64,000 nt of DNA from Siphonodentalium dalli (taxonomy: Eukaryota > Mollusca > Scaphopoda > Gadilida > Siphonodentaliidae). Position numbers and translations under genes: made by a program. The stretch spans positions 61,328,893-61,392,892 of the forward strand of contig CP136067.1 of NCBI GenBank assembly GCA_032622095.1, in the 5' to 3' direction. The notes under the pieces were generated by a model. It was not told the DNA's origin. It was given only the letters and a program-made list of their open reading frames with translations, and did no database searches. Below, one piece after another: positions 4,228 to 36,744 of the stretch. Positions within the stretch are counted from its first letter, which is position 1. Each line of letters begins with the position of its first letter.

Positions 4228-5108
4228 CTACTTAGCCAGCTTAGCCGTCTTTTCTCTCCCATCGGGGGAGGAAGTGGATGTCTGGCTACTCCTGTTACGC
4301 TTCCTCTCATTGCGACTCGCATTTAGTATTGAATTTGTAAGGTATTTTTTCCCTTCTGGGCTCAAGTGCAAACCCGAAGCCTCATCCGATTTGAACTGTG
4401 AACGGATAACAAATCCTTCTTTATTTGTGTACAGTTTAGAATTATTTACATATGTCAGCTTAGAACTTCTCAATTTACACATCTTTGCGACGAAAGCGTT
4501 TATCTTGTCCGCAGCTTCGTTATGTAGGGTCATTTTCCTACCTTTCCCCTTCCTCGGCGGAATGCTGCAGAAACTGAATCTGGCGTTTTCGAAAACACGT
4601 TCCAGCTCCTGTAGACCAAACCCGAATTTCAATTCCACTAATTGTGCATCATAATCACAATGTAGAATATCATTTGTTCCCAGATGTAGGATAACATGCT
4701 TCACGTCCTCCAATACCACCGAATCCTCCCTTTTAACCAGTTTTATTAATTCATGAACTCTACCCATATCGGCGCCCGAGAAGTTAAACTTCTTCACATT
4801 CGCATCCTCTACTTCGAGGCCGTAACAGTTACTAGCACCGAGTAGAATCGTATCAGATGCACTCTCGTCCGCCCCATTGGTATCATCTTCTCCATGTTGC
4901 ACGTCGTATATATCATCACTCTCGTCACTTTCGGTATGTCCGCTATCGTCAACATTGATCACCTCGTACACACTATCGCTATCTGAGTTGTCGTCACTCT
5001 CAACGTCATCAGGTATATCATCCAGTACTGTTATAGGAGCGCGATTGCGTCTACCGTTGTATCCGTTAGTCCGTGCTGAGTGCCCGGGCTTGTGTTTCTT
5101 GTCACAAT
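4228..5108 (-). pseudogene. LINE ORF1, C-terminal half (SGNH esterase-like), split by the Ngaro insertion
   Basis: Downstream half of a minus-strand ORF1. It begins at 5108 with the last residue pair of a CCHC zinc knuckle, runs through a basic stretch and a long acidic Asp/Ser-rich linker (about 4,870-5,030 in DNA), then an SGNH/GDSL-type hydrolase-like fold: a G-A-S-N block I, a G-T-N-D block III, and a D..G-L-H block V near the end, followed by a Lys/Arg/Ser-rich tail and a TAG stop at 4228-4230. ORF1 proteins with zinc knuckles plus an esterase domain are known in CR1/L2-like LINEs. The serine of block I is in a GAS context instead of the usual GDS. Together with 10937-11594 it makes 1,539 bases (513 codons including stop), so it was a single frame before the insertion. 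Confidence 0.8.
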
Positions 5109-5315
5109 GATAACTTTCCCGCGTTTTCTTGTATTAGCGGGAAAGTATTGTATTCACAGCTCGATGAATAATGTATGTTATGAGTAGGCGGAGTTTTCAT
5201 TAAGCCAGCAGCCAATGAAAAGTTGTTATTGGAGAATTGATTTCGGCGGGAAATCAGTGGAGTGTAGTCACTTCTAGTCCTAACTTTGTTGGTTCAGCAC
5301 ACAAATTTTTATTTA
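5109..5315 (+). repeat. Ngaro split direct repeat A1
   Basis: Starts GATAACTTTCCCGCGTTTTC and ends ACAAATTTTTATTTA. A near-identical second copy (A2) is at 10243-10450. The two differ mainly at one spot (GAAAGTATTG in A1, GACATATATTG in A2). It lies 37 bp before the first ATG of the element and so should carry its 5' leader and probably its promoter. Confidence 0.95.
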
Positions 5316-5352
5316 TCGTCAAAACAATCGTTGTACTTGGGAACTTTTCGTC

Positions 5353-8300
5353 ATGGAACAACACCAGCATGATGCAGCTACACTGATTCCGGAGTCGATA
5401 CAAAAGGCAGTAGATGCGGCAGTCCAGCGATCGCAGAATGGAATGTTAACGGAGCTGAAACAGCTATTGGCGGTTGAGTTGGGAGGACTTCACACGAAGA
5501 TAAGTAGTACACAAGTCGACTTATCTCAGCAGCAAATGCGACAGATAGACACCTTAAATGAGTCTAAATATACTTTTAAAAAGAAAAGTCATGAAGACCA
5601 GTTCAAGTCTAATGCCAAAGTATTGTCAAATTTGAATGCGGCCAGTGCTTCACTCAGTAAAGATAAAGTGGAACAAGCAGATTTTGATTGTGCAAGGCAA
5701 AAGGTGCAAGATGGTATGGATTTGTTAAATTTTAGACAAAAATGCATTAAGATAGCAGATTCAAATGAAAATGGTTGGTCTGTAGTACATGAGTATCTTT
5801 CTAATCCTTTAGCGGACGACTCTGAAGACGAAAAGAAACTCAGCAAGGCAGTCAATGCTGCAGGGCGGAAAGCCAAGTCAGCTAAAAACAAAAAGAAAGC
5901 TACACGACAGCGTCCTTATTCAATTGCTGAGTCTGCAGTCCGAGGGAAAGCCAGTTCACAACATTCAGCTCCAAAGTCCGACCGAGGCATCAAGCCGGGA
6001 CAGTGCTGGAACTGTCATTTATATGGGCATTGGATTAGAGACTGCACGGCCTCCAAGAACGACCGAAATAAGATGAGTATTGATAATGTTTACATTAGTA
6101 CCAGTTTCGGCGGTGAGGGGGTCAATGTGGTCGAGAAATCACAACAAAGCGAATGTCGCAATAACAAGAGTAATGATTTGAATCACACTCAAATGTTAAC
6201 GCAGGGTGGTGAACGCATACAACTGATTCGGCCCGAATATAACAAAGCAATATCGCAGTACAGCGATGTGTTTACATGCAGTCGGTTCAGTGATCAGAGC
6301 GAGCGAGCGGAATCGCAGTTGAGCGAACTATTGTTTACAAATAATCGCTTGAGTGAACAGGCAGAGAGTCAGTTACCGAAAATGACAGTACAAACAGACA
6401 ACACTGTCGGGTTTTCGTTTAAAGCGAATGAGCATTCTCCGGTCGGTAGTTTGCGTGAGAACATTGGGGAATGGAGAAATTTAAGCGATGTTAACACTCA
6501 TGTTATTGATGTTATCCAGAATTGTTATAGATTACCATTTAGCACGATGCATGATGTGGCGGTGTTAAAGAATAATAAATCAGCATTGGATAGCAAAATT
6601 TTCGTTGAAAAAGAAATATACACTTTGCTTAAATCGGGTCGGATACAGCAAGTGCTAAATATTCCGAAAGTGGTTAATCCTCTAACGGTGGCTTATAATA
6701 GGTCCGGAAAACCTAGGTTGGTTTTAGACTGTAGACACGTTAACCCAAATTTACATCTGTTCAAACATAAATATGAAGATGCTTCAGTAGTGATGCATTT
6801 ATTTGAGAAAGGGAGTTATCTGTTTACATTTGATTTAGGATCAGCATATCATCACATTTTGATAAATTCAGATTATTGTGAATATTTGGGTTTTGCTTGG
6901 TTATATTCTGATGGCATAATTAAATATTATGTCTTTAAAGTTTTACCATTTGGGTTGTCTACGAGTGGATTTATTTTTTCAAAAGTAATGAGGGAAGTGG
7001 TTAAACATTGGAGAAGTCAAGGAATGAAAATTGTCATGTTCTTAGATGACGGAATCGGGGGAAACTCTGATTATTTTTCAGCGTCAAGGGACGCAGTGCA
7101 AATCAAAGAAGATTTGTACAGGTTCGGATTTATTTTATCCGATGAAAAGTGTAATTGGGAACCGAAACAGAACGTAACGTGGTTGGGATTAATTTGGAAT
7201 ACTGTAGAAGGTAAAATAACAGTTTCTGAGGAACGGGTGTGTAGATTACAACGTTCCATTGATCTCTTGCTTGATCTTGTGAGAAAAGGAAATAGTTTGG
7301 TACGAGCGCGTACGTTAGCCGGTTTGGCGTGTATGATTGTTTTCGGAAACGATGCCCGATTGAATACGAGATATATATTTGATTGTCTCAATGGCAGAGC
7401 CAGTTGGAATTCGAAAGTGATGTTGAACGCTCAAGTTCTTGAGGAACTTAACTTTTGGAATTCAAATTTTAAGTGTATGAATGCAACGGGTGTTGATATG
7501 GAATGTACTGACGTTGCTCCTGATTTGGTCGCTTGGAGCGATGCCTCGGGTGAGGGTTACGGCGGTTTGATAAAAGATAACGACCGCAGTATAGTTATAA
7601 AAGAGCAAAGTTCCGTCGGTTACGATAAATCCGGATTTCGGGAATCTGGTTTGGTTTTTAAACAAAAAGCACGCAAACGTTTCGGAGAAACGGGATTATG
7701 TGCGTTTGATAGCGTTGACATGCGCGATAATATGACAACCGGATTTTGTGAATCTGGTAGCGTTAATAAACGCGACGGTAAGAAAACCGGATTTTGTGAA
7801 TCTGGTTGTGCTGACATGAGCGATAATGTGAAAACCGGATTTTGTGAATCTGGTAGCGTTAATAAACGCGATGATCAGGAAACCTGATTTTGTGAATCTG
7901 GTTGCGCTGGCATGCGCGATAATTTGAAAACCGGATTTTGTGAATCTGGTGGCGTTAATAAGCGCGAAGGTACGAAAACCGGACTTTGTGAATCTGGTTG
8001 CGTTAATATGCGCCACGAAGTGAAAACCGGATTTTGTGAATCTGGTAGCGTTAATAAGCGCGATAGTATTAAAACCCGATTTTTTGAATCTGGTTACGTA
8101 TATAGTGTCAAAAACACTGAATTTCGTGAATCCAGTAGCGTATGTGAGAGGCGAACTGCGGATAGCGCAGAATGCGTGGAGCGCGTTTGTTGCGGTACTT
8201 GGGCAGCAGATGAAAGCTCGCTTAGTTCTACTTGGCGAGAATTAGAAGCGGTTCACAGAATCGTAAAAGATTTTACGGAAAGCGCAAACGTGGCTGGTAA

Positions 8301-8939
8301 ATCTATTGAGTGGTCAACAGATAATCAAATGTTTGTAGAATTTTGAATGCCGGTAGCAAATTAAAAGATTTACATAAAATATCTTTATCCGTTAGGGATG
8401 TTTGTCAAGATCATGATTTAAAAATATTTCCTAAATGGATACCACGGAGCCAAAATAAAATCGCAGATGAGCTCAGCAGAAACAAAGATGCTGATGATTG
8501 GGGCATTCAAATAAGTTTGTTCAACGAAATCGATAGCATGTGGGGTCCCCATACTATTGATAGGTTCGCATTTGATTACAATGCGAAATGTGCGAGGTTT
8601 AATTCGCGTTTTTGGTGTAAAGGAACCGAAGCAGTAGATGCATTTCGGCAGCATTGGGACGCTGAGAATAATTGGTTGGTTCCTCCTCCGAAATTAGTCT
8701 GTAAAGTTTTGCAGAAAATGAGACGTGATAATGCCAAGGGAACGTTGATAATTCCGAGATGGCGATCGGCTCCATTCTGGCCTTTGCTATTCAAGGCTGA
8801 CGGAAAATGTAGTAATTTCGTATACGGATATTATACTTTGCCAGATCATAGTATTATCAAGGGCAGAGGAAATAACGGGGTTTTCGGCTTGCAGAAAACG
8901 CCATTTCAAATGATTGCTCTAAAAATAAATTTTGAATGA
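5353..8939 (+). pseudogene. Ngaro Gag-RT-RNase H polyprotein (one stop, one frameshift)
   Basis: The first ATG after A1 opens one frame covering Gag and Pol. The N-terminal ~215 residues are Gln-, Lys- and Ala-rich without a recognised fold, followed by a CCHC knuckle C-X2-C-X4-H-X4-C at residues 218-231. The RT lies at about residues 400-690: catalytic Asp494 in an F-D-L-G-S-A-Y motif, an L-P-F-G-L-S motif, and F-L-D-D with Asp565/Asp566. RNase H starts with Asp730 (W-S-D-A-S-G) and continues with Glu in T-W-R-E-L-E (8239), Asp in W-S-T-D-N (8320) and the A-D-E-L-S-R end motif. Between the first Asp and the Glu sits a large tandem-repeat insert. A TGA replaces a repeat-unit GGA at 7885-7887. 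A single-base shift near 8,330-8,342 moves the frame; the tail runs to the TGA at 8937-8939, which overlaps the recombinase ATG. Confidence 0.9.
7624..8160 (+). repeat. Coding minisatellite (~48-bp units) inside the RNase H domain
   Basis: About eight good and three degenerate units of 48 bp, each encoding 16 residues of the pattern K-T-G-F-C-E-S-G-x-V-N-x-R-D-x-x. Two unit types alternate (one with N-K-R-D, one with x-M-R-D-N), giving a 96-bp higher-order period. All units keep the RNase H reading frame except for the TGA at 7885. Each unit centres on an imperfect palindrome, ACCGGATT-TTGTG-AATCTGGT. The minus strand is also open across most of the array. Outer units (around 7624-7700 and 8090-8150) are the most diverged, as expected for unequal exchange. 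Confidence 0.93.
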
Positions 8940-9981
8940 TACATACGTTTTGTAATGACATAATAATTTTTTCAGGTCTGAGGTTGAAGGATAACATTCA
9001 AAATAAAGTTGTGGAAGCAGGACTTTCTGTGGATCGAGAAAAGGGACTGATAGACAGTTTAAGCATGTATATAGTTTGTGCTAAGAGCGATTCAACCTCA
9101 AAGACATATTTGGCAGGTTTCAAGAGATGGGAAAGGTTTGCTAAACAAAAGGGATATGACGTGTTGCCAGCTAAACCAATATGTGTGGCTTTATATTTGA
9201 CTTATTTGTTGGTTAACCATGTTTCTAATCATGTCATTAACTCCGCAAAGTATTCAATCAAGTGGGCTCACAAGTTAAATGATTTGGTTGACCCTACAGA
9301 CAACGGTTGCGTACATTGTTTGCAAGAGTCGGCTAAGAGAAATTTCTCTAAGCCGACAAATCGTAAAGATCCGGTAACAAAAGAAATGCTAATTGATTTG
9401 TGCGAAATGTTCAAAAGTTCTGAAGATTTTTTTGACATTCGTGATTTAACTATGCTCCTGTTTGGATTTTCTGGCCTTTTGCGTTACGATGAATTATCAT
9501 CACTCAGAAAGAATGATGTGCAAGTTCTTGAAGATCATTTGAAGTTGATAATTAGAAAAAGTAAGACAGATAAGTACAGACAAGGAAATGAAGTACTAAT
9601 TGTGAAGGGAAGCAGTATAGCTTGCCCTTATAACATGTATATCAAATATTTCAAATTTGTTGAATCCGTTGACGGCGAAGAATTCTTGTTCAAGGCCGGC
9701 TTCAGGAGTGGTGGCTTGATTAAATTTAGATATAATGATAAAAAGTTGAGTTATACAACTGTTAAAGATCGATTGATCAGTAAGCTCAAGCTAGTGAGCA
9801 ATGGCCTAGATTTAGGCTTGCATAGCCTGAGGGCTGGTGGTGCTACATTAGCGGCTAATTCTAATGTAAAGAGCGTTGTTTGAAACGTCATGGAAGATGG
9901 GCTTCCGATAGTAGCAAAGGCAGATATGTGCAAGACGACCTGACATATCGTTTGCAAGTTTCAAGCAAGCTTGGCCTTTGA
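8936..9981 (+). pseudogene. Ngaro tyrosine recombinase (YR), single frameshift
   Basis: Integrase of the element: expected to resolve and insert a circular cDNA by a covalent tyrosine intermediate. It starts with an ATG that overlaps the preceding TGA as ATGA, suggesting termination-reinitiation. The N-terminal ~130 residues look like a SAM-like/core-binding domain. The catalytic domain has the first Arg in L-L-R-Y-D-E-L (about 9,478-9,495), the Lys of the K-S-K-T-D-K hairpin (about 9,560), and H-x-x-R in L-H-S-L-R-A-G-G (9,818-9,829). The frame then stops at 9881-9883. The adjacent frame continues with the second His in R-H-G-R-W and the nucleophile Tyr at 9925-9927, ending at TGA 9979-9981. 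A one-base loss in an A run near 9,868 explains the shift. All five or six catalytic positions are present in DNA, so the lesion looks recent. Confidence 0.9.
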
Positions 9982-10184
9982 GTAAATGTGTCTAATTACT
10001 TTGTTTATATTGAAATTGAGTTTATACATGTTGCATATGTTAAATTGACATGTTGAGAAACTATATGTATAGTGTGACAGTCACAATAATATTTTTAATA
10101 TTCAGGTTAAATTACAAAACTAATTTACATGAAGGGCAATTGATATTTAATATGCATCGGCGGCCAGTTTTTTGTAATGCTCTA

Positions 10185-10242
10185 GATGGCCTGGCTGATT
10201 GCTTTAGTAGTTTGTTATCATTATGGTAGAATTGGGAATACT
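10185..10242 (+). repeat. Ngaro split direct repeat B1
   Basis: 58 bp beginning GATGGCCTGGCTGATTGC and ending GGGAATACT, identical to B2 at 10879-10936. It directly abuts A2, so B1-A2 is the sequence a B2-to-A1 circle junction would have. Confidence 0.95.
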
Positions 10243-10450
10243 GATAACTTTCCCGCGTTTTCTTGTATTAGCGGGACATATATTGTATTCACAGCTCGAT
10301 GAATAATGTATGTTATGAGTAGGCGGAGTTTTCATTAAGCCAGCAGCCAATGAAAAGTTGTTATTGGAGAATTGATTTCGGCGGGAAATCAGTGGAGTGT
10401 AGTCACTTCTAGTCCTAACTTTGTTGGTTCAGCACACAAATTTTTATTTA
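10243..10450 (+). repeat. Ngaro split direct repeat A2
   Basis: 208-bp internal copy of A1, starting GATAACTTTCCCGCG immediately after B1 and ending ACAAATTTTTATTTA. Confidence 0.95.
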
Positions 10451-10878
10451 ATTAACTTAATTAAAGTGTGCGATATTGCCCAATTTGGAGATAGTGAGTT
10501 TGAAAATTTTGGTTTTCAAACTTTGAAAATATTTGATTTTGTTTGAGAATTTTCATTGATCTCATTTTAAGATAGACAGACATGTCACTGTTATACAAAA
10601 TAGTTTAAAGTTCTTATCTTATGATATTTAGGTGTTCCTATATAAATATGGAACGTGTAGAGTAAGAAATTTTTCTGTGTAAAATTTCATTGAGAGTGTA
10701 TTTCCGACACTAGCTGTGTCCATGCAGAGTGTTCGGATAACAGGTTTCCATCATGGTTTTCCCTAAAAGGGTTTTTATGGGTGGTTGTTCCTGGACCGCT
10801 GCACAGCATTGGTAGAGTAGGGTGTATAATGAATTCATGTCTATGTACATGTCTTCGGAACAATAAACGCTGACCGAC
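10451..10878 (+). other. Ngaro unique 3' segment between A2 and B2
   Basis: 428 bp, AT-rich, with no open frame of note. In Ngaro/PAT elements this segment belongs to the 3' end of the transcript. A possible polyadenylation signal, AATAAA, occurs at about 10,862. Reading the minus strand as coding through here would be an artefact of the insertion. Confidence 0.75.
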
Positions 10879-10936
10879 GATGGCCTGGCTGATTGCTTTA
10901 GTAGTTTGTTATCATTATGGTAGAATTGGGAATACT
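10879..10936 (+). repeat. Ngaro split direct repeat B2 (right end)
   Basis: 58 bp identical to B1. Its last base, 10936, is the last base of the element; 10937 resumes the interrupted LINE frame. Confidence 0.95.
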
Positions 10937-11594
10937 TACCAATTCTGTGTTGACTGGAGCCACAGGCGTAACACACGGATGGTTCAGTGCACTCACGTGA
11001 CTCGTGAGTACTACTCTTACAGTTACGACAAGAGCGAGTAAATTTCTTTCCAATGTCACACATTTTACCTGGGAAATGTTGGTCACTACAATGTTTACAT
11101 GCTTGTTTTGTTTTACCAGAATACACTCTTATTGTGAAATCCTCAACATCGATGTTCCGATGTATCTCGGTGCACTCTGTAACCTGTATATACCTAGTTC
11201 CACTCTCGAAGTTCCATCCAGGCACAGTGCCCCTCTTGTAGCTTCCTTCCACCACTTTCCCATACTTCGCAAACAACTTCACACATTCCTGGTCAGAAAG
11301 TTCCAAAGGGGAATCCTTAATTGTTATCTGTGTACCAGAATCCTCGACGCTCTGCAGCCTCACCGATCTTCCGAAAAGCTTGATACCCTTGTCCGTCATA
11401 ACACTTTTCACAGACGAACTTTTGGCAATAATTAGGCATGCATTTTCAGTAATTTGAATACCGGCAATCGAATCGTTTAGATCTTTAATTATTTCACTCA
11501 GGCTGTCGATGACGTCATCGTGATCAATCCTGTTTAGTCTATATCTAATTCTATCGAAACTCACAGTCAGTTCCCTCCGAATTTTGTTCGGCAT
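10937..11594 (-). pseudogene. LINE ORF1, N-terminal half (RRM-like plus zinc knuckles), split by the Ngaro insertion
   Basis: Upstream half of the minus-strand ORF1; the start ATG is at 11592-11594. Residues 1-160 have a mixed alpha/beta pattern with an L-F-A-K-Y-G-K-V stretch resembling an RRM-like nucleic-acid-binding fold (a weak assignment). Three cysteine-histidine knuckles follow: C166-X2-C169-X3-H173-X5-C179, C189-X2-C192-X4-H197-X4-C202 and C208-X2-C211-X4-H216. The last Cys of the third knuckle lies 5.8 kb away at 5103-5108, across the Ngaro element. Such proteins bind element RNA in non-LTR retrotransposons. The apparent continuation of this frame to 10710 is read through Ngaro DNA and is not part of the protein. 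Confidence 0.8.
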
Positions 11595-23838: not shown

Positions 23839-24590
23839 CATTCAATATTGACCAAATAAACGGTGCGGCCCACCCCAAACTATACTATAAAAAGTGAAAA
23901 CCGCACCACTAGCCCATGCGGTTGCCACACGAGGTGGCCAAAATGGCAACCATAGCCGTTTTGGTATTTAATACTATTTATGAACCGATTTTGACCAAAT
24001 AAATGATATAGCCCACCCCAAATTATACCGAAAAAAACGAAAAAACCGAAAACCGAAAACCGCATCCCTCTTTCCCGTGAGTTTGCCACAGGAGGTGGCC
24101 AAAATGACAACCATAGCCGTTTGGTATTTATGAACCGATTTTCACCAAGTAAATAAATACCAAAACGGCTATGGTTGCTATTTGACCACCTCATGCGGCA
24201 ACCGGATGGGGTATAGGGATGCGTTTTTCGTTTTTATAGTGTAATTTAGGCTGGGCCACCCTACCGCGTCGTTTATTTGGTCAAAATCGGTTCATAAATA
24301 ACAAAACGTCCATGTTGCCATTTTGGTCACCTCATGTGGAAACCGCACGGGTTAGAGGGTGCGGTTTTCGGTTTTTATAATATAATTTGGGGCGTGCCAC
24401 CCTATCGCGTCGTCTATTTAGTCAAAATCGGTTCATAAATACCAAAACGGCTATGGTTGCCAGTTTGGCCACCTCCCGTGCAACCGCACGGGTTAGAGGG
24501 TGCAGTTTTCGGTTTTTATAGTATAGTTTGGGGTGGGCCACCCTACCGCACCGTTTATTTGGTCAAGGTTGAATGTGTCCGAATAATTCA
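23839..24590. mobile_element. Satellite-armed foldback copy 1
   Basis: Units of about 145 bp containing CGGTTGCCAC..GAGGTGGCC, AAAATGGCAACCATAGCCG, TTTTGGTATTTATGAACCG and ATTTTGACCAAATAAACG run forward to about 24,140, then in reverse to about 24,560. The outer ends (ATTCAATATTGACCAAATAA and its inverse GGTCAAGGTTGAATGT) are inverted. Each unit has its own inner GGTTGCC..GGCAACC stem. No protein-coding capacity. Confidence 0.85.
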
Positions 24591-25440
24591 ACCAAATTTG
24601 GTGTGGTGACTGGATACCATGGCGGAGGTTATTACGGCGTTAGTTTTTCAAAATTGTTATTTAAAAAAATTATTTAATTAAATAAATAAAAACAAAAATC
24701 AATTAAGCTCACTATGGGCCTATTTCAGCACCACATGTATGCTCTTTATAGATGTGTTTTCACTGTGGCCCGGGCCATCCAACAGAATAACGGCTATAAG
24801 TCCACCACGGGCTTATATCAGAACCAAATACGTCCAATATGAACCAATATCAATATTTAGGTCCATTATCAACCTATTTGCCCGAGGATATATTGAAGTA
24901 GCATAATAATATGTAAATATGATCAATACCGATCAATATATATAATAGAGTAGGCAGTGTCTACAGCGGCCCCTAACGAAAAAGGTGCCACGGGCCCCTC
25001 CGACGATGAATAAAGGCTCCCGAGTGGAACCTGTTTCAGCTAGTATTCTAATATAGTCAGATATAGTGACTATTATTTTACTTGCCTATTTTGGGACAAT
25101 TATCAGCTGGTACTATATAAATAACTCACTAAAATATATATACAAATGGATGAGTATATATAATAGATATCTTCCCTTATGAAACCATTGGGAATGGCTC
25201 AATTGGACAATATATAGGTCAATGAATTCACGAAATACCACTCTAAAAATTAAACAATATACATATATAGGTTGATGAATTCACGAAATAGGCTACCACT
25301 CTAAATATTGAAACAACATATATTTTATGTTCGCTAACGTCGTAGATACGCGGTAAAAATTCTGTGTATATAAATGTATATTTTAAACTGATCGGTCGTG
25401 AACAAATTTTCATTTCTTATCGAAAATGCATGCACCGGTC
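24591..25440 (-). repeat. AT-rich module linking satellite-armed foldbacks, reverse copy
   Basis: About 850 bp with ordered landmarks: TTTGGTGTGGTGACTGGATA, ATTTAATTAAATAAATAAAA, GCTCACTATGGGCCTATTTC, GGTGCCACGGGCCCCTCCGA, CGACGTAGATACGCGGTAAA (variant) and ATTTTCATTTCTTATCGAAA. The reverse complement of the same order occurs at 36,745-37,680, 40,360-41,220 and 42,530-43,100. No open frame is conserved between copies. Confidence 0.85.
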
Positions 25441-26350
25441 AGAATGACTACCGTGACATCGGTTACTTATTCCTAGTTCCTTATTCCTTATTCGAAAAAC
25501 ATTCAATCTTGACCAAATAAAGGGTGCGGTAGGGTGGCCCACCCCAAACCGCACCCTCCAGCCCGTGCGGTTGCCACAGGAGGTGGCCAAAATGGCAACC
25601 ATAGCCGTTTTGGTATTTATGAACCGATTTTGACAAAATAAACGACGCGATGGGGCGGCCCAGTCCAAATTATACTATAAAACCCGAAAACCGCACCCCT
25701 CTAGCCCGTGTGGTTGTCACATGAGGTGACCAAATTGGCAACCATAGACGTTTTGGTATATTTATCAACCGATTTTGACCAAATAAACGACACGTTATGG
25801 TGGCCCACTCCAAACTATACTATAGAAACCGAAAACCTTTTCCCTCTAGCCCATGCGGTTGCCACATTTAGGTGGCAAAAAAGGTAACCATGGACGTTTT
25901 GGTATTTATGAACCGATTTTAACCAAATAAATGACGTGGCCCACCCCAAATTATACTATAACACCGAAAACCGCAGCCCTCTTTCCCGTGAGTTTGCCGC
26001 AGGAGGTGGCTAAAATGGCAACCATATAGCCGTTTGGTATTTATGAACCGATCTTCACCAAGTAAATAAATACCAAAACGGCTATATTTGCTATTTGATC
26101 ATCTCATGTGGCAACCGGATACGGTTGAGGGTGTGGTTTTCGTTTTATAGTGTAATTTAGGGTGGGCCACCCTACAGCGTCGTTTCTGTTGTCAAAATCG
26201 GTTCATAAATACCAAAACGGCTATGGTTGCCATTTTGGCCACCTCCCGTGCAACCACATGGGCTAGAGGGTGCGGTTTTCGGTTTTTATAGTAGAGTTTG
26301 GGGTGTGCCACCATACCGCATCGTTTATTTGGTCAAGGTTGAATGTGTCC
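25441..26350. mobile_element. Satellite-armed foldback copy 2
   Basis: Same ~145-bp units as at 23.8-24.6 kb, forward until about 26,040 and reversed after it. The left edge repeats CCGTGACATCGGTTACTTAT and ATTCAATCTTGACCAAATAA; the right edge ends GGTCAAGGTTGAATGTGTCC then GAATAA. It lies beside the 24.6-25.4 kb module, so the local order is array-module-array. Confidence 0.85.
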
Positions 26351-26650
26351 GAATAATGAATAAGGAACTGGGAATAAGTAACCGATGTCACCGTAGTTCG
26401 GAATGGCACATTGAGGGGTCCCTCGACTCAGATTAAGCTTGAATAGTGAACTGGCAGATCTTCACACACATTATATACCTGCAAAATACAGAGGAGTGGT
26501 TAAACCGGATTATTATCGTTGACTGTGTTAAGATCTGATTAAGAGATTAATTGTGTGACCCTCGGGATTAGCATGTGATATCGTAGACAAACATGCAGAT
26601 GTATTATAAAGATAAAATATTCTACAATATCTGTCTATAAGTGGTTTCAG

Positions 26651-26767
26651 TTGTTCTGTCAAAGAAGCGACGAGCTCTGTTGATTCGCAACGTTTCGGAA
26701 AATGTCATGAAAGATGTGCATAGACTGGAAGATTCTACCGTACGTGCTTGTTTTGACTTTCGATCAG
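26651..26767 (+). CDS. Possible upstream exon of the 27-31 kb gene
   Basis: An AG acceptor preceded by GTGGTTTC opens a frame with charged, repeat-free composition (basic K-K-R-R start, then R-N-V-S-E-N-V-M-K-D-V-H-R-L-E-D). A CAG/GTTTTC donor at 26767 would end it in phase 1. The next exon can accept this phase only with a weak acceptor at about 27,037. The frame stays open to 26847, so the true exon end is uncertain. No family recognised. Confidence 0.3.
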
Positions 26768-27039
26768 GTTTTCAAAACCCTTTGCTTAAGAAAATAAGTT
26801 CTTGGAATGAAATAACGCGACCTCAAGAATCGATTCAACTCAAGTGAAAAATATTAGTTAGATCGATCAGGAACATCTAAATCTCTTAATGTGGTACCAC
26901 AACTCTGAAATGAAAAATATTTTGATTCCATATAAAACGATAAGAGGATTATAACCGAGGACGCTGCCGCATACCCTTCTGGACGCGATATATTACTACA
27001 GAATAGTATTTTGGTGGTACACTGTGCGATCACCGAGAC

Positions 27040-27269
27040 ATGAATATTGTAAGGGAGGACGTTCCGAGTAGTACCCCTACGGGTACAGCACTGAAAAGGT
27101 TAAACAACCAAAACAACCTTGCTGAGTTGCATATGCGAAAGGATTTCGAGGACCTGGAACGTCGAAGGTTATTCAGGGCTACGACACTGGACAAAGATAG
27201 ACTTGACATGACTGATGTGCTCAAAGAGATTACCCACTGTGAATCAGAGTTCCACCCAATCTCGAAACT
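27040..27269 (+). CDS. Candidate host gene, penultimate exon
   Basis: Encodes about 76 residues from an ATG at 27040 (or from an acceptor a little upstream), rich in charged helix-forming residues: a L-A-E-L-H-M-R-K-D-F-E-D-L-E-R-R-R core followed by D-V-L-K-E-I. It ends at a strong GTGAGTAT donor in phase 2 (exon end 27269). The exon at 30207 begins with exactly one base before the next codon, so the two join without breaking the frame. No part matches a mobile-element family. An in-frame TAG at 27004-27006 limits how far upstream the exon can reach. I do not recognise the protein. A cytoplasmic, coiled-coil-like tail is plausible from composition only. Confidence 0.55.
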
Positions 27270-27689
27270 GTGAGTATCATCAATTGATTGCAGGAATAAT
27301 TGCAGAAACATTATGTGCATGGTTCCATTCAAGGTGCATCAAATATTCAAATAGAATTACCCTCCCCTTAGTCAGGTTATGTCATCCAGAAAGGCCTCTA
27401 TAGAAATGGACACATGTGCATTTTGCTTTCAGAAGGGGTTGAGCATTAATTGTTTCTAATGGTAATTTTCCGCTGAATTCAAAAATACAAGTTGGCTGCC
27501 ACTCCCCCTGTACTTCCCTTGACACCAACAGCGTACTTTACAAAATATTAGCCCGCACAATTAACTTCCAAGTAAAAAGTTACCTCCTTTAGACCGCTTT
27601 GGTGCCATCTAGATGGCCCCCGTCATGTGAAGTTATATACCACCCAGACAGACAGACATTTGCAAATATAGGCACGAAATGTGGCGTCT

Positions 27690-28052
27690 TAATAAACCCA
27701 CACACTTTGATTCCTCGTATCATTGGAAAAGAACGTGTATTAATTTGGTGGAAATTGGCACTAATCAAATTTATATCAGTTTCTGTGACCCTCAGGGGAG
27801 GGTCACAAAAACTTATATAAACCCTGACTCAAGTGGCGCCACTTTTTTTTTACATCTTTAAACCACATAATTGGACTCATGAAGATATATATATATAATT
27901 GGTGGAAATCGGCGACTAAACAAATTCGTATCGAAGTTAGTGCCCCCATCTCTCGCCACCCAAACGCCACCAATTTGGCGTATTTAAACCACACGATTAG
28001 ATTCGTCGTATCGGTGGAGAAGAATATGCATCAATTTGGTGGAAATCGGTGC

Positions 28053-28087
<35 letters not shown>

Positions 28088-28670
28088 CAATGTTTGTGTT
28101 CCTCACCCCTTCCATGCACCCTGACATCTTTAAACCACACGATTTGATTCTTGATATCATGGATAAGTTGGGTGGTAATTGGCGACTTAAAATATTCTTA
28201 TCAAATATAGCCCCCCCCCATCTCCCACCCAAACGTCAGCGATTTGGTGTCTTTAAATCACAAGATTATTTATACCTCGTATCATGGAGAAGAATATGAA
28301 TCAATATGGTGGAAATCGGTGGTAAAATGTTTTTTTTTTTTATCAAAGTTGGTGCCCCTCTCGCCTTCAGTGAACCCCTGACTCGATATAAATTCTTATA
28401 AAATTTAGTGCTCTCCATCTCTCATCCAAATGGCACCAATTTTGCGACTTTAAATCACACGATTATATTCATTGTATCATGGAGAAGAATGTATATCAAT
28501 TTGGTGGAAATCGGCGCTAAAATGTTTTATCAATTTTGGGCGCCCCTTTCCCGCACCTCTGACTCGAACGACGCCACTTTTGACTTCTTTAAACCACACC
28601 AATATATTCCTCATATCATAGATATGATTATGCATAAGTTTGGTGGAAATCGGCGACAAACATTGTTGTT
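27690..28670 (+). repeat. Diverged tandem array, ~140-bp units
   Basis: About seven units share CTTTAAACCACACGATT, CCTCGTATCATGGAGAAGAA and ATCAATTTGGTGGAAATCGG, followed by GCGCTAA and a CCCCTCTCGCCACCC-like pyrimidine stretch. Units vary in length because of AT and T-run indels. The GGTGGAAATCGG phrase recalls the retroposon tails at 43,090 and 60,095. Confidence 0.75.
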
Positions 28671-29595
28671 ATCCTCCTCCCTATTTTCCACCCTTCTGAT
28701 TGGCCCATGTCCTGTCACGTGCCGGGCGACAAATCACACTGTCGCCCGCTGACCCGGGAGACATTGTTTTTGTCGCCCGCCTGATGCTATATTGCAAGAA
28801 CATCTCCAAACACACACTGCAGTAACTCATCTATTTCACATCACAATAGGTACTAAAAAATCATTGATCTTATATACCCCACGGATTCGCAATACACACC
28901 AGTTGTGGTGTTTGCTAATTTGCATATATTTAGTGAACACTATATTCGAACTTTTAAGTTGATATTTTTATCGGACAAGCGTTATTATTTACTTTTTACA
29001 TCGAAACATCTCGGTGATTCAATTTGTTCATGTCGACATTATGATGCAAGATTGAAAGAGAGGATCCCTTGAAGTTGGTTGGTTATATATGTTTGCTGGT
29101 AGACAACGTAATGCAACGTTTGTCGCGAATGAATGGTACTGTACGCGTATCCTCCGCGATGTCTGCAATGTGATCATAGAAGTATTTTATGTGAGGATCG
29201 CCATGAGCACTGACACATATGAATGTACATTAATGAAGTTGACAACTTCCCAATAGCTTTCGGGTAAGACCGTTTTGAAATGAACATCGCGAGTAAATTG
29301 CGCGCACAAGACGACATTGAATATGCCTTGCAGAAGACGAGAACATACCTATATGGCTTATTGGTTTACATTGCATGGACCGATATTGACGATTTGACCA
29401 CCAAAATGATCGAAAATAAACGCGGATTATCAAACGCTTAAAAGCTTGACTATCGTTTATGGAACAGAAATCCTATGGGACGATAAGTAGTTACTGAAAA
29501 TATACATAATCGGGAAAGAAATCACTCATGACTCAGTGCAACATCGTGCGTGTGGATGGCAAGGATATTTTCTGTGGAATAATCGGATAACAAAT

Positions 29596-29744
29596 CAGTT
29601 GTTGCCCTTCTTCTCGGGAGACATTGAGATTTGTCACCCGCTCGAGAACGGAATGTCTCCCTCGGAGCTTCGCTCCTCGGGAGACATTCCGTTCTCGAGC
29701 GGGTGACAAATCTCAATGTCTCCCTCGACAACGGGCGACAACTG
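29596..29744. repeat. Perfect 46-bp-arm hairpin within a longer palindrome
   Basis: Arms 29616-29661 and 29679-29724 are exact reverse complements (both read GGGAGACATTGAGATTTGTC and onwards), with a 17-base loop that itself contains GGAGC-TTC-GCTCC. Imperfect pairing extends to 29596 and 29744. A related unpaired half (GGGAGACATTG..TTGTCGCCCGC) sits at 28,751-28,777. Lack of divergence between arms means recent formation or gene-conversion maintenance. Confidence 0.95.
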
Positions 29745-30206
29745 TATATTGTTGCCGCTCCCCCTTTCTGCCCCTGACAAGAACTGCGTCACTTTAGAAA
29801 ATTCTAACCCGCACCATTATGTTCCTCGTAAAAAGTTACTACTGTCATACCCCTTTTGTTGTAATCTAGATGGTCCCACATGAATTTCTATAGAACATAG
29901 ACAGACAGACAGCAAAGATAGATATAGATAGATAAATATACACATGCAGCGTGGTTTGGACCACATGACATTTTCCTCCAGAATTTTGCTGTTATTTAGT
30001 GTTGTGAATGATTTATGTTTGTCTTATCGAGCTCGATCCATTCACCAGATATATTGCATAGCTGTAAAATATAATGAAAACAGCATGACAGAATTCGAAG
30101 CAAAAATGGGTTCCCTGATTCTTGAAGTAGTTACCAAGATCGAACCAAATTACGACATCGTAAAATGGAACTAATTTAGATAATACGTCATCGTCTTTTA
30201 TTACAG

Positions 30207-30978
30207 ATACCTCGGTCGTGATATTAGTCGAAAGAAGGTTGCGTTACGAGCACAGATCAAGCGACAGCGAAGTCGGAGGGAAGTGAAAACGGCACCGGCT
30301 GCTGTTAATAGGACTCAACCGGAAGAAAAGAAGGATTTTGCCATGAACGCGCGGAATGTTGCCAACGAGATGAGAGAGAACTCAACTGCCATGTCCCTGA
30401 TTAGCTCACCAATCGAGATTGGTGGTAAATCTGGATATATTCAAACTCCTGGTTTGGGCAGACGTTCGTCAACAGAAAACAGAATGCAGGTCGAGACACG
30501 TGGGCGATCAGGGTCAATTCTTGCGAGCCGGCGTATGTCCACTCAGAAGCCGCTGCCTGTTCGACCCCTTGTTAATCTCGCACGAGAATCTCCGGATCTT
30601 TTCAGATCTTTGTTCAAGCGACCCAGATATTTATCCAGAGTTCTCCATCGGGCAAACGTCTTCTCATTTTTACGTGATGTCAATGGAAACAGCGATGACG
30701 AAGTTTTTGAAAACAGGAACAGCATGATCATTGAAGAGTGCAGCGAGGAAGAATCAGAGTCAGGCGAATCTGAGAATGAGGATTTTCTCGTGTCCAGAGA
30801 AGACACTGACGCAATGAGAGCGCTGCTTATTGAAAAACGTGAGCCGAAACCAGAACGCCTTAGTGCACGGGTTAGGAACTTCTATGGCCAAATCCAACAT
30901 TTACTAGACGACAACTCACCAAATAGTAATAAACTACAGCGGCGCCAAACGACGTTGTCATTAATCAACCATAAATAA
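30207..30978 (+). CDS. Candidate host gene, terminal exon
   Basis: Begins after a good acceptor (TCTTTTATTACAG) with the base that completes the codon left by the 27269 donor. It encodes 257 residues to a TAA at 30976-30978 that overlaps an AATAAA signal (30,975). The start is strongly basic (R-D-I-S-R-K-K-V-A-L-R-A-Q-I-K-R-Q-R-S-R-R), the middle is Ser/Arg-rich, an acidic run E-E-C-S-E-E-E-S-E-S-G-E-S-E-N-E-D lies near three quarters, and the end is Arg-rich. There is no transmembrane segment and no cysteine pattern. Codon use and complexity look like a host gene rather than a repeat. Function unknown: the composition suggests an intracellular, largely disordered regulatory tail. Confidence 0.6.
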
Positions 30979-31532
30979 ATGTTGTTATAATATTCTAATA
31001 TATTGGCGATAGTGTCTATATATATGATGCCAAATTCATATTTCTCTTGAGAAGAATGTGCCTTGATGGGTCTGGCTTCTGACGAGGAAATAATTGCATG
31101 GAAAAAAGCAATTCCACCATTTCTTATATAGGTTATCATTGTTGTTTTTTAGCTTCAATTATCCCTGTGCATGGTGTCAATTAATGTCAGCGCATTCAAT
31201 TCTTCTGGAATTTTAAATGGTATGATCTTAAAAGATATACAGGTATCCTGTATTAGTGTCATGTGGTGTTCATCCTTGGGTAGATAGACATGGAATAGGG
31301 AGGCCACTCCCACTATACCCAACAGACACTCTCCAATAAAAGAATTAATATGAATCAAGAATGAGAGTTAAATACACTCACGTACCAGAGATCTCTACAC
31401 GTACACAAAGAACCACTTGTAACAACCTGATAATTATAACGGATGTCACTCACCTGCAATGAGCAGCGACAAATCATACAGTTCTGTGTAACTGAACCCG
31501 TTTCACCGCAGAGCGATTTATGAGTGGGGCTA
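30979..31532. other. 3' flank of the candidate gene, no further gene
   Basis: AT-rich sequence from the candidate 3' UTR to the composite element at 31.5 kb. No open frame with support. Confidence 0.5.
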
Positions 31533-31534
31533 TA

Positions 31535-31985
31535 GGTTACACTGGTGTAAATAAGGTTCCGAGTGACATCTAGCGGATGCGGGAGGAATATATAGGAGAG
31601 AATAAAATAGACACTGGGCCCTGATTGGTCAATAGCCGTGTGTGCTTTTCACATAAAAAAATCATCACACCTCTTCCCTATGATTTCCCATAGGTAAAAT
31701 AACCATTGGCAAAGGAATTAACCCTTTGTAGTGAAGTTTGAATTTTTTGGTGAGGTCTAAAATATGACTGTATTTTTTTATGCGGTTCTGACACTAGTTA
31801 CGAAAACATAAGATTTAAAGGCGAATTCCCTGCTAGACAGACATGATTTTTTTGTGTAAAAAGTTTCCCAAAATGTCAATTTTTCAGATTTAAAGAAAAT
31901 TTTGGACCCAACATTTATATTGCCAACACTATACGCTAAAACGTTAGCACTGAGGCCTATGGAAAACATTTACACCAGTGTAACC
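31535..31985. mobile_element. TA-flanked MITE, copy 1
   Basis: 451 bp with perfect 17-base terminal inverted repeats (GGTTACACTGGTGTAAA and its complement), bordered by TA on each side. Non-coding. It differs from copy 2 (33787-34236) at only a few positions, one substitution (GGTGAGGTC/GGTGTGGTC) and a one-T length change being the clear ones. TA borders suggest a Tc1/mariner-type mobiliser; no transposase is seen. Confidence 0.9.
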
Positions 31986-31987
31986 TA

Positions 31988-33786
31988 AAGGGAAAAAATA
32001 GCTTTTTATCATTTTTGATTCCTGGGAGTCACTTTAAAGCATTTTAATGCATTTTACAGAGCCTGGTCTTTCAGTCCAATGAATATCTCATGCTTGGTGT
32101 GGCTATTCTTGCTGCTGATGTCTTCTTTCACTTACATCAGCCAAAAAAATAGTAAGATTTTTCATAAAAAATGCCAATTTTTCAAGGTATTTTCAAATTT
32201 TTTCAAGGTGGTAATAGTCACATGATAATGCAAATGACCCATAACATGAGCATGTCAACGACACATATATCAATTGTTATAAGAACCTAATCTAACAAGT
32301 ATTTTGGATTTTATAGCCAGTGATATACAGATATATATCATAAAAGTGTGTCATTTCCACTGGTGGGTATGGTCATTTGAAGGTTAATAGCACTAAAACT
32401 TGGACACATTTAAGAAAATGCTTCAGCAATTCAAAGAGAGCATATCTTTATTCAACTAATTCAATATACACCCACATCCAGTTATCTTGGATCACCCTTG
32501 CAGACCTGAAAATGTCATATTTTATTCTTCAATGTGCTGATAAAGTCATGCGCTTGATGCTCAGCTGATCAGATCTGGACTCAATGACCTCACATCACCA
32601 GAAGTTCTCTCATGGAAAGAATATTGTACAGTCTTCCATAGCTGATCCAAGTTTGCAACACCAGACCCCTAAAACTGAGTGAAAATGGGGCCTGAACATG
32701 ACTGGTGGTGGAAAATTGTGCTTTTTTGATGAATAATGTGTTAAAGGGGGTGGGGTTAAATTGTGTGTGATAAATAAAGAACCACAGAAGTGATATTGTT
32801 TTTGAACACATTTTTTCCATTGATGGGCAATTCTGAAGAAATGTAGGGAGTTACAATTATTCCGCGAAAAAGCGGGCTATCGCTTTAAGGGAAAAAATAG
32901 CTTTTTATCATTTTTGATTCCTGGGAGTCACTTTAAAGCATTTTAATGCATTTTACAGAGCCTGGTCTTTCAGTCCAATGAATATCTCATGCTTGGTGTG
33001 GCTATTCTTGCTGCTGATGTCTTCTTTCACTTACATCAGCCAAAAAAATAGTAAGATTTTTCATAAAAAATGCCAATTTTTCAAGGTATTTTCAAAATTT
33101 TTCAAGGTGGTAATAGTCACATGATAATGCAAATGACCCATAACATGAGCATGTCAACGACACATATATCAATTGTTATAAGAACCTAATCTAACAAGTA
33201 TTTTGGATTTTATAGCCAGTGATATACAGATATATATCATAAAAGTGTGTCATTTCCACTGGTGGGTATGGTCATTTGAAGGTTAATAGCACTAAAACTT
33301 GGACACATTTAAGAAAATGCTTCAGCAATTCAAAGAGAGCATATCTTTATTCAACTAATTCAATATACACCCACATCCAGTTATCTTGGATCACCCTTGC
33401 AGACCTGAAAATGTCATATTTTATTCTTCAATGTGCTGATAAAGTCATGCGCTTGATGCTCAGCTGATCAGATCTGGACTCAATGACCTCACATCACCAG
33501 AAGTTCTCTCATGGAAAGAATATTGTACAGTCTTCCATAGCTGATCCAAGTTTGCAACACCAGACCCCTAAAACTGAGTGAAAATGGGGCCTGAACATGA
33601 CTGGTGGTGGAAAATTGTGCTTTTTTGATGAATAATGTGTTAAAGGGGGTGGGGTTAAATTGTGTGTGATAAATAAAGAACCACAGAAGTGATATTGTTT
33701 TTGAACACATTTTTTCCATTGATGGGCAATTCTGAAGAAATGTAGGGAGTTACAATTATTCCGCGAAAAAGCGGGCTATCGCTTTA
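31988..33786 (+). repeat. Two tandem ~900-bp units between the MITE copies
   Basis: Unit 1 (31,988-32,886) and unit 2 (32,887-33,786) are direct copies differing at only one or two bases (for example CAAATTTTTTC/CAAAATTTTTC). Each starts AAGGGAAAAAATAGC and ends GCGGGCTATCGCTTTA, ends that are weakly inverted (AAAGSGA). Identical 63- and 76-codon frames occur in both and are not convincing genes. I do not recognise the unit; a non-autonomous DNA transposon duplicated in tandem is one reading. Confidence 0.9.
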
Positions 33787-34236
33787 GGTTACACTGGTGT
33801 AAATAAGGTTCCGAGTGACATCTAGCGGATGCGGGAGGAATATATAGGAGAGAATAAAATAGACACTGGGCCCTGATTGGTCAATAGCCGTGTGTGCTTT
33901 TCACATAAAAAAATCATCACACCTCTTCCCTATGATTTCCCATAGGTAAAATAACCATTGGCAAAGGAATTAACCCTTTGTAGTGAAGTTTGAATTTTTT
34001 GGTGTGGTCTAAAATATGACTGTATTTTTTTATGCGGTTCTGACACTAGTTACGAAAACATAAGATTTAAAGGCGAATTCCCTGCTAGACAGACATGATT
34101 TTTTTGTGTAAAAAGTTTCCCAAAATGTCAATTTTTCAGATTTAAAGAAAATTTGGACCCAACATTTATATTGCCAACACTATACGCTAAAACGTTAGCA
34201 CTGAGGCCTATGGAAAACATTTACACCAGTGTAACC
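33787..34236. mobile_element. TA-flanked MITE, copy 2
   Basis: 450 bp, same orientation and ends as copy 1. The outermost borders of the whole composite are TATA on both sides (31531-31534 and 34237-34240). Confidence 0.9.
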
Positions 34237-34240
34237 TATA

Positions 34241-36744
34241 CACAATTATATCAATTCAATCAAGCATTCATTTCATGCCAGCTTTGTCGATGTTATAAAT
34301 TTGACCAAGTTTGGATTTTTTACCGAGTATGTTTTCCTTACTCCTATTAAGTACTAGTTTAAAACTGAGCGAAAAATAGTACTCCACCTGAGTTTGTAAC
34401 AAACCAATGGGAAAATAAGGGCTATGTATGGGCATGCGTCAAATAAAAATTAATAGTGGATTGTTTAATTGTGGATTTTGCTTTTTATGCGACCATTGCA
34501 TTAAAACGACGCGGTTTTATAATTTGATGTATATTATTTGTGAGTTTGGAAAAAGTCTCTATAGAGGCACAATTTTGGGCTATCTTATCAGGGCTTTTCC
34601 AAATTACCATGATTTATACGTCGCTTGGCATTGAGTAAAGGTTCTGATATTGGTTGACCGAATGCAAATATAGGCCTACATGACAGTATATGAGTATTTG
34701 TCAATTCGGTGTCAACTTTTCGTAATATATGTAACGCATCAACATATTAACTCTCTCGTTTTCCCTGTGGTATATTTTGATTCAGAGTCGTACTGTTTTT
34801 CGCTCAGCACACATGGGTGTGGGAAAGATAGTACCGTGTTAATTTGAATACGAGTAAGGTATGTCAATCCAACTATTTAAAATGCATTCAGCAAAGCGTT
34901 TATTTGTTTCTGAAGTCAGCACCCTGTGTGGTTGTGCTTTACTTCTTTCGAAATAGTTCCAATGATTCGCATCAATTTAAATGTCAAAATGATTACGTGG
35001 AGCATGTAAACACCATATTCACAACAACATGACGATGTATTTATGTTTTACTTGACCTGTTGACGTAGAGTTTCGTTGTGATGTCCTGCAATATACACAT
35101 GTATCTTCAGAAACGGTTGTCATCAGATATATGTAATATTATAAACGTCAATTAAGTACATAATTAATATCACTTTAACCTGGTATCCTGGATTTATTTC
35201 CTGACCACCACCAACTGCAATACAGAATTCAGTATATACGTCCCATGCTACGCTGGACTGAACACTGCCATCATGTACACAGAATATGGGGAAGTCTCTC
35301 ATTTTTTGTTATTTAAGACTTGTGTCGTTTGCAATTCATTCTGTATTATTCTGAGAAACCGAATTGTCCATATTTATTTGAAAATTGGCTAGATGAAGAC
35401 AGAAGAATGGATAGTAATTGCTGAAAAAACACTTCATTAAAAATGCTATATTTAATTATGAAAATATACATGATGGTAGCTGTCAGACCAGCGTAGCGAG
35501 AAGACTGGACTCTGTCTTTCATACCCCACCACCACCCCATGCATGTGTAGGTATATAATCCCCAGACAACAAAGTTCGCGGATAGTAAATCCGCTCTTGG
35601 GTTGTTTGGTGAAACTTCGGAGAAAATGTCCCTTTTGTTTGTTGAGTGGTGATAAATACCTCTGATTATTCGAGTGAATGGATAAATTATATCACACTTA
35701 ATCCGCTTAATAATTCAGCAACCAACCATGGGTTTTAATAACCATTTACCCGAGAGATCATGGGAAGACACAATCTCCTATCTTATTGGCCATAGAACAT
35801 TTAGATAAATAGACCATATAACAGTATTATCAGCGACGTGGCGAATGGGGTTCTGTGTGGTCTCAGCCCCCCCCAACTTTGGTCAAAATGTTAAACAGTA
35901 GGAAATTTCATACCTGACACAACATTGTACACCAACAATATATATTTTGAAAGTGTTCTCGTAGTTTGATTTTCCAACGAATTATTAGTGGACACAGACA
36001 CAAGCCGCCCATACAAATTATGTATTCTCTGATAGCACTACCTTCCAGTCACACGCTGTTAATATAGAGAGCATATAACTTCAGTTCGTTGTGTGTTCAA
36101 GACTTTAAATCGTTCAAATGTTCACGAAAAATAGAATATTCGCCTTTCATATTTACCACGAAAAGTTTGTGTTGTCACTATCATAAATATGTATTTATCT
36201 ACCAAAACGCGTTCGGTAAATCCAATATCTGGCAAACCGTTCACAATTTCTGTCAAGTTCTTTCTACTTGTGATGTCTAGATAAGTACTGAGACATATGA
36301 ATTATGTAGTTGGGCATGTGTTGTTTGTAACAAATATTTTAGTACTATAAAATCGATGTTAATGCATGCATAATTACCTCTTATCATTCAAATATGTTGT
36401 TGTTGTTGTAACTAGCGGTCTGGAAGCCTGAACACAACTGTAATCAATTAAACGGTATCTCTGAACAAAACTTTCAGTACAAGAGTCATATTGGGTCCCA
36501 TTAAGATCAATTAGAAAATGTTTGTAAAGTCGTTATAAAAAATATGTAAATATTCGACCAAAAAAAGTGTTTGGGGAGGGGTAGCTAATATCCAGTATCT
36601 CGCAAACCGTTCAAAATTTCTGTTAACTTCTTTCTTCTTATGCTTGTCAGATAACTACTACACTATACGGTTTAAATACTTCGGCATTATTGTAATATCC
36701 GTTTGAATGATGTCTGAAAAATAATATTTTTGTGAAAAAAAATT
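34241..36744. other. No gene seen; one duplicated phrase
   Basis: AT-rich. The phrase CAAACCGTTCA.AATTTCTGT followed by TTCTTTCT.CTT occurs at about 36,230 and 36,605, a small diverged duplication. No open frame is supported by domain or splice context. Confidence 0.5.

Follow-up and report, generated by a model that had tools for sequence, protein, structure and literature searches.

The tandem array that fills part of the RNase H domain of a tyrosine-recombinase (YR) retrotransposon in the scaphopod Siphonodentalium dalli is probably the current filling of a permissive RNase H loop in a large lineage of such elements. The insert looks like an old, tolerated and fast-changing loop, not a scar in one dead copy. 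Drawn from sequence comparison, this reading follows from a fixed insertion point, frames that are open in 11 families, fillings that are mostly unrelated to each other, repeat periods in multiples of three, the existence of compact relatives and an insert dN/dS near 1. Retroelement RNase H is generally regarded as a compact domain. The element was read in a window of 64,000 nucleotides (the whole stretch of DNA analysed, contig CP136067.1), and all comparisons of relatives were made within the one host genome of 2.23 Gb in 9 contigs. Its features are the following.

5108 to 10935, plus strand: whole tyrosine-recombinase retrotransposon, from split direct repeats and flank joining
5108 to 5315, plus strand: repeat A1, 98.6% identical to A2 over 209 columns
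5353 to 7887, plus strand: gag, RT and first part of RNase H; the ORF ends at the TGA within the array (Pfam RVT_1, E 5.8e-14)
6004 to 6045, plus strand: putative gag CCHC zinc knuckle C-x2-C-x4-H-x4-C, pattern by eye (Pfam zf-CCHC 14.9 bits, cutoff 20.8)
7519 to 7578, plus strand: RNase H strand with the first catalytic Asp (7540) and GYGG; this block matches compact relatives
7621 to 8160, plus strand: repeat-filled RNase H insert (core array 7688-8095, 48-bp units, 96-bp period)
7885 to 7887, plus strand: in-frame TGA in the array, also found in copy L017 at another site
8182 to 8343, plus strand: RNase H continued, with Glu (8239) and the third motif (Asp), from motif reading and alignment to close copies
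8343 to 8936, plus strand: RNase H end and Dam-like methyltransferase domain, in a frame different from that of 8182-8343 in the window copy (Pfam Dam E 1.5e-5, 25.2 bits, cutoff 28.1)
8936 to 9883, plus strand: ORF of the tyrosine recombinase, which loses its frame near 9870 (Pfam Phage_integrase below cutoff, E 0.001)
10185 to 10242, plus strand: repeat B1, identical to B2 at 58/58 positions
10242 to 10450, plus strand: repeat A2, pairing with A1
10879 to 10936, plus strand: repeat B2, pairing with B1; the final base possibly belongs to the flank

The mismatch between A1 and A2 is confined to one local patch. When the flanks were joined by script, 322 of 322 tested minus-strand codons were open and a CCHC knuckle was restored, and there was no target duplication at the reconstructed empty site. 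The insertion interrupted a minus-strand ORF of an older element (window 4228-5107 and 10937-11594), which encodes the CCHC knuckle and, after it, a GDSL hydrolase domain, and is open over the tested codons once rejoined. Elsewhere, window 24153-42444 holds several satellite-like arrays with units of 134-145 bp and sequence in common. Pfam recognition of the element's domains is faint: the Phage_integrase match reaches E 2e-5 in relative L034, below cutoff, the RNase H models have no match to the window pieces at E 0.1 and rise above cutoff solely in relative L056, and a Dam-like match is present in all four of the relatives' RNase H-MT pieces scanned, above cutoff solely in L056 (35.0 bits). 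RNase H is defined by its acidic catalytic motifs and their order. Relatives with and without an insert keep the order Asp, Glu, Asp and a late A-D motif; exceptions at the first motif occur in single copies (Tyr for Asp in L088, DPS for DAS in L017), and in the window copy the late A-D motif lies in a frame different from that of the preceding motifs.

The earlier note, written from the letters of the window, had labelled the element Ngaro. Ngaro elements are described, in the accessible text of three papers (PMC9210276, PMC4157794, PMC3266345), as without a methyltransferase domain, which the same texts report for PAT-like elements together with split direct repeats. The Ngaro label is therefore doubtful, as a Dam-like domain is present (below cutoff in the window, above it in L056). 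With this domain and the split direct repeats A1 ... B1-A2 ... B2, the window element is provisionally a PAT-like YR retrotransposon by the published descriptions. Likenesses to PAT-like elements (DIRS order), as far as those texts describe them, are the B1-A2-B2 repeats 3' of the recombinase, the RT-RNase H followed by a methyltransferase-like domain, the CCHC pattern in gag (a gag zinc finger is a trait of Pat1, but the pattern here scores below the Pfam cutoff) and the absence of target duplication; a repeat-filled RNase H loop, in contrast, goes unmentioned for PAT-like elements in the accessible text of PMC4157794, PMC3266345 and PMC9210276. Ngaro elements, in the available portion of PMC8547959, have in common with it the split repeats A1-[ORFs]-B1A2B2 and the gene order gag, RT-RH, YR, and differ in the methyltransferase domain. 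As in YR retrotransposons of the DIRS order, the tyrosine recombinase adjoins RT-RNase H, without target site duplication. In the literature found, a set mostly outside subscription papers, no title or abstract opening mentions a repeat within a YR-element RNase H. The mouse LINE-1 ORF1 length polymorphism region resembles the present case in that short tandem units were gained and lost in frame on several independent occasions, but it consists of an ancestral 66-bp unit pair in a coiled coil (accessible text of PMC3600994). The present families, in contrast, have differing unit sequences within a catalytic RNase H domain and have compact relatives.

In the window copy, Tandem Repeats Finder reports the array at 7688-8094 with a period of 48 (8.5 copies, 76% matches) and at 7712-8095 with a period of 96 (4.0 copies, 86% matches), the latter bearing out the alternation of two unit types with a real period of 96 bp proposed in the earlier note. 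Its count of about 11 units of 48 bp also holds if 2-3 degenerate units at the edges are added to the 8 to 9 well-preserved ones; the edge units show register shifts of 12 nt (first) and 6 nt (last, by eye), both multiples of three. The Asp codon at 7540 and the Glu codon at 8239 were placed correctly on either side of the array. Its statement that the rest of the RNase H signature is intact holds for the motifs and fails for the reading frame, which shifts near 8340, in the stretch from the third to the fourth RNase H motif. Frame retention, also claimed, does not apply to this copy, which is broken by the TGA at 7885-7887 in the array and loses its frame near 8340 and again near 9870, where the match of the recombinase to close copies stops at residue 312. 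A 48-nt period moreover preserves the frame automatically, so that frame retention alone is weak evidence.

Relatives in the same genome place the array in a wider setting. A total of 67 loci (16 of them close copies) and further RT pieces were compared, the loci all in translation and some of them without a single-frame match. Ten further families have copies in which an open insert of about 57-223 aa occupies the RNase H position that is filled in the window element, and each of the 11 families has at least one copy with an open in-frame insert. The insertion point is fixed: it follows the Asp strand (GYGG) and precedes the 'GTW..DE..SSTWRE' block. The spacing from D-A-S to S-S-T-W-R-E measures 30 residues in compact relatives (L053-L056, L086, L088, L090-L092, and L087 by eye), whereas in filled relatives it ranges from 87 to 253 (that of L037 is underestimated, its match having started at an inner D-A-S) and in the window family it is 228; the catalytic motif order is that of the compact RNase H of Pfam RT_RNaseH and RVT_3. 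In a set of 61 sequences, the insert is open in 38 and missing from 4 compact ones, the window copy has one stop and 18 lack a single-frame match, through damage or an altered motif. The families are composed as follows.

F1: the window family; 16-aa repeats
F2: L033-35 and L044; 95 or 151 aa beyond compact length, no repeats
F3: L037 and L045
F4: L038-43; 23-aa repeats, L041 with one unit fewer
F5: L036, L046, L078 and L085; Gly/Asp/Cys-rich repeats
F6: L047-48
F7: L049-50, L076 and L079-80
F8: L051, one copy
F9: L052 and L081-82
F10: L066-69
F11: L070-75, L077 and L089

L083 and L084 were too broken to be classed; in L083 another degenerate repeat, with an SRYGD motif, stands ahead of the same RNase H block. 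Among the guesses offered in the earlier note, that of a lineage exploiting repeat expansion comes nearest to this picture of ten more families with inserts at one point, several with repeats of their own. Insert length changes between open copies in frame, by 69 nt in L041, 168 nt in L033 and 6 nt in L079. L089, with an RT near-identical to that of L070-type copies, is missing most of the insert, some 49 residues, without a change of frame, which may represent either a recent loss of the insert or an older state. A genome search with a compact RNase H-MT query gave at least 150 matches (148 of 1055 candidates scored), starting at or before residue 8 in 46 cases, between residues 14 and 36 in 86 and later in 18. 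Loci that were read and start by residue 8 are compact (L089 with a short remnant), and those starting at 14-36 have an insert where they can be classed, a class that truncated copies could swell. No relative outside the host genome was confirmed in viral contigs (by protein, alignment and a 16-base pattern) or in non-eukaryotic genome contigs; the 16-base pattern gave 8 stretches in viral contigs, with one match apiece.

The compact and filled states were set on a tree of 29 rows built from RT and the post-insert RNase H/MT, excluding the insert and not counting L089. Three changes of state are needed, and well-supported branches impose two of these. The midpoint root sets a compact group (L054, L056, L091, L092) to one side, and a second group is mixed, with compact L053, L086, L087, L088 and L090 beside filled L066, L069, L070 and L077; weak points of the tree are its long branches and the short rows L087, L090 and L091. 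The state thus changed at least two or three times, and the seeds that were expanded differ between families.

The fillings themselves differ in content. An ungapped self-match test was applied to one open representative per family with 60 shuffles, and clear in-frame tandem repeats were found in the inserts of 7 of the 11 families, with scores of 231 (F1), 204 (F4), 90 (F5), 35 (F11), 32 (F9), 27 (F3) and 25 (F6) that none of the 60 shuffles reached. The best shifts were all multiples of three (F1 96, F4 69, F5 141, F11 45, F9 105, F3 108, F6 123). Marginal self-matches were seen in F7 (score 15, 0/60 shuffles) and F8 (score 14, 1/60), and the same test found no self-repeats in F2 and F10. 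Among flank controls, 14 of 16 stretches behaved like shuffles and two beat 30 shuffles at scores of 14 and 15. In 17 copies of F1, F2 and F5, Tandem Repeats Finder places the long arrays of coding DNA at the insert, with some short low-score runs and 3' end arrays elsewhere. A single domain common to all inserts was rejected: 53 of 55 family pairs are similar only at shuffle level, the exceptions being F1-F2, with a faint common remnant that is real-looking by eye (score 50 against a shuffle maximum of 47), and F7-F11, where 2 of 100 shuffles are equally high. Capture of a host domain was likewise rejected, as ten inserts (all families but F3) gave nothing above cutoff in Pfam except NQRA_SLBB for F4, a match attributable to the repeats since no individual stretch is significant.

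How such a loop could be tolerated and refilled may be outlined from these patterns. From the general topology of RNase H, we take the insertion point to be a turn that joins strands 2 and 3 at a distance from the active site, where a long disordered loop would be tolerated; no relative of the compact RNase H domain was found in the PDB, where a match elsewhere was to the RT alone. Duplication and deletion in the course of reverse transcription or recombination would lengthen and shorten the fillings, growth proceeding by slippage or strand switching, perhaps aided by short hairpins, and selection would remove chiefly frame-breaking changes while leaving the residues free.

A selected spacer is a possible, if rather unlikely, alternative, in which the length and disorder of the loop matter (for particle packing, solubility or the spacing between RNase H and a partner) and its sequence does not. 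All nine tree rows in the clade formed by the window family and its nearest relatives keep inserts of at least 95 aa, though repeat recombination should easily delete them, and in every family but F4 (10 of 11) order-promoting residues are scarcer in the insert than in the flank downstream of it. Against a spacer, insert lengths range from about 57 to 223 aa, compact lineages manage without an insert, and most of the family insert is missing from L089, albeit a copy with a stop in its RT.

The inserts are also predicted to fold locally. The best-preserved part of the window unit holds a stem of 9 pairs closed by a 3-nt loop, the unit also has a smaller second stem, and two 144-nt stretches of the window array have folding z-scores of -5.9 and -4.0. 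Across 12 inserts, local folding has a mean z of -3.4 when dinucleotide shuffles are the reference and -2.7 with synonymous-codon shuffles; background stretches in the window have a mean of -0.4 over 108 tests. Perfect stem-loops number 29 in 11 inserts (6.5 expected), and between the close copies L018 and L023 the hairpin core has changed less (9 of 189 sites) than the sequence outside it (33 of 243). These values would suit inserts selected as RNA, as arrays of hairpins in the genomic RNA that serve packaging or pausing and strand transfer, the protein loop being a by-product. Such selection appears quite unlikely, however, because the flanking coding DNA is structured as well (mean z -1.7 downstream and -2.2 upstream; 20 perfect stem-loops against 9.3 expected), the signal is present on both strands, the F7 and F11 inserts do not fold above their own downstream flank, those of F5 and F7 show nothing against synonymous shuffles, and paired changes in stems are not above shuffles, with none in the window stem. 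When whole elements were tiled, insert windows were conspicuous in L018, L023 and L034 and not in L036. In L018, L034 and L036 the local folding of the coding DNA exceeds that of the genome around it on either strand, as would be expected of sequence with many short inverted repeats. The short inverted repeats are perhaps a trace of template switching in element replication, strongest where the protein is free, and an RNA function for them, while possible, seems less likely than this origin. A broader proposal, that the RNase H point is a standing site of protein innovation at which element replication repeatedly copies hairpin-prone sequence into in-frame arrays, giving each family a private, fast-changing loop whose hairpins function in reverse transcription or packaging, is one we regard as unlikely.

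Rates of change in insert and RT were compared between L018 and L023, which represent two subfamilies of the window family, have equal unit numbers and can be aligned gap-free across both regions. The comparison of repeat with RT proposed in the earlier note gave an insert dS of 0.129 and dN of 0.123 (dN/dS 0.95; 0.138 and 0.122 with other limits) against an RT dS of 0.115 and dN of 0.027 (dN/dS 0.24; 0.123 and 0.021 with other limits), L023 being the sole copy of its subfamily in this comparison and broken further downstream. The insert of the window family thus seems to evolve nearly neutrally beside a constrained RT. For the nine units compared, most L018 units are nearest, or almost so, to the L023 unit in the same position, so there has been no wholesale homogenisation since the split. 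Preservation of the ORF between the two is not significant (71 substitutions, 2.1 stops expected, P of none 0.11). Variants within families, pooled over 8 families, gave nonsynonymous to synonymous counts of 64:12 in the insert (per-site ratio 1.52, p 0.21 against neutral), 25:18 in the RT (ratio 0.37, p 0.002) and 36:11 in the downstream RNase H/MT flank (ratio 0.84, p 0.59), the insert differing from both flanks in a Fisher test (0.019); the downstream flank is indistinguishable from neutral in this count because many variants postdate insertion. The pooled ratio of 1.52 and the difference in fillings between families could also be expected under diversifying selection, with the loop targeted by a host factor and changing to escape it. 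This is very improbable, as the pooled ratio is not distinct from neutral and dN/dS between the subfamilies does not exceed 1.

Compact relatives and unconstrained insert residues would equally be expected if the insert were an intron, spliced from the RNA to leave a compact RNase H. The reading frame makes this highly unlikely: all 11 representative inserts (picked as open copies) are open in the coding frame and multiples of three in length, with a chance of an open shuffle of at most 0.038 for each, and open copies differ in length by multiples of three. In each of F1, F10 and F11 the insert can also be read without a stop in one reverse frame, which means little given a 48-nt period.

The close copies of the window element (family F1) bear on the age of the array. 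An RT search of the genome gave 116 matches, with 115 of 2438 first-look candidates scored, so that copy counts are lower bounds, and there are at least 16 other close copies with 83-99% identity, some of them partial. The array or its remains is present in 16 of 16, or 17 of 17 with the window, on 8 of 9 contigs. Eight of the 17 (the window, L017-L020, L023, L024 and L027) have an insert of exactly 582 nt, a length common to two subfamilies, and L032 has one of 534 nt; in insert, L021, L022, L025 and L030 are shorter with the frame lost, insert length thus being altered out of frame in four copies, and L026, L028, L029 and L031 are damaged in other ways. Near 8340, ten of the 16 are in frame, L028 and L029 lose the frame in the same stretch as the window and 4 cannot be judged. 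L028 and L029 are near-identical and lie about 400 kb apart on one contig, possibly through a host segmental duplication. Some close copies have an unbroken frame that spans gag, RNase H and MT. The array predates the window insertion, since the seven best units (7729-8017) differ mutually by 6-29%, far more than the terminal repeats, which are 98.6-100% alike. L017, with flanks unlike those of the window and terminal repeats identical at 208/208 and 58/58 positions, contains the same TGA, which indicates that array and stop were copied together to a new site. Readthrough could have allowed the stop-bearing template to be mobilised despite the TGA, but protein supplied by another copy is the likelier means.

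Post-mortem expansion in one dead copy, or an assembly artefact, might be suspected from the stop and the two frame losses of the window copy, but it can be practically dismissed: every close copy found has the array, on 8 of 9 contigs and with some frames open, its units are older than the insertion and the stop-bearing array was itself re-copied. The idea in the earlier note of an in-frame array within RNase H that is no post-mortem expansion has thus withstood the search for close copies without the array, or for its confinement to copies with other lesions, and the results support an old array in an element whose RT was under purifying selection.

The relatives in this one genome therefore range from no insert to more than 200 residues at a single point of RNase H. 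They provide a natural series of variants on which the tolerance of a polymerase-linked RNase H, the birth of in-frame tandem arrays and the possible role of reverse transcription in it can be followed. Elements of this kind also run a risk of mis-annotation, no RNase H model of Pfam having matched the pieces of the window at E 0.1.
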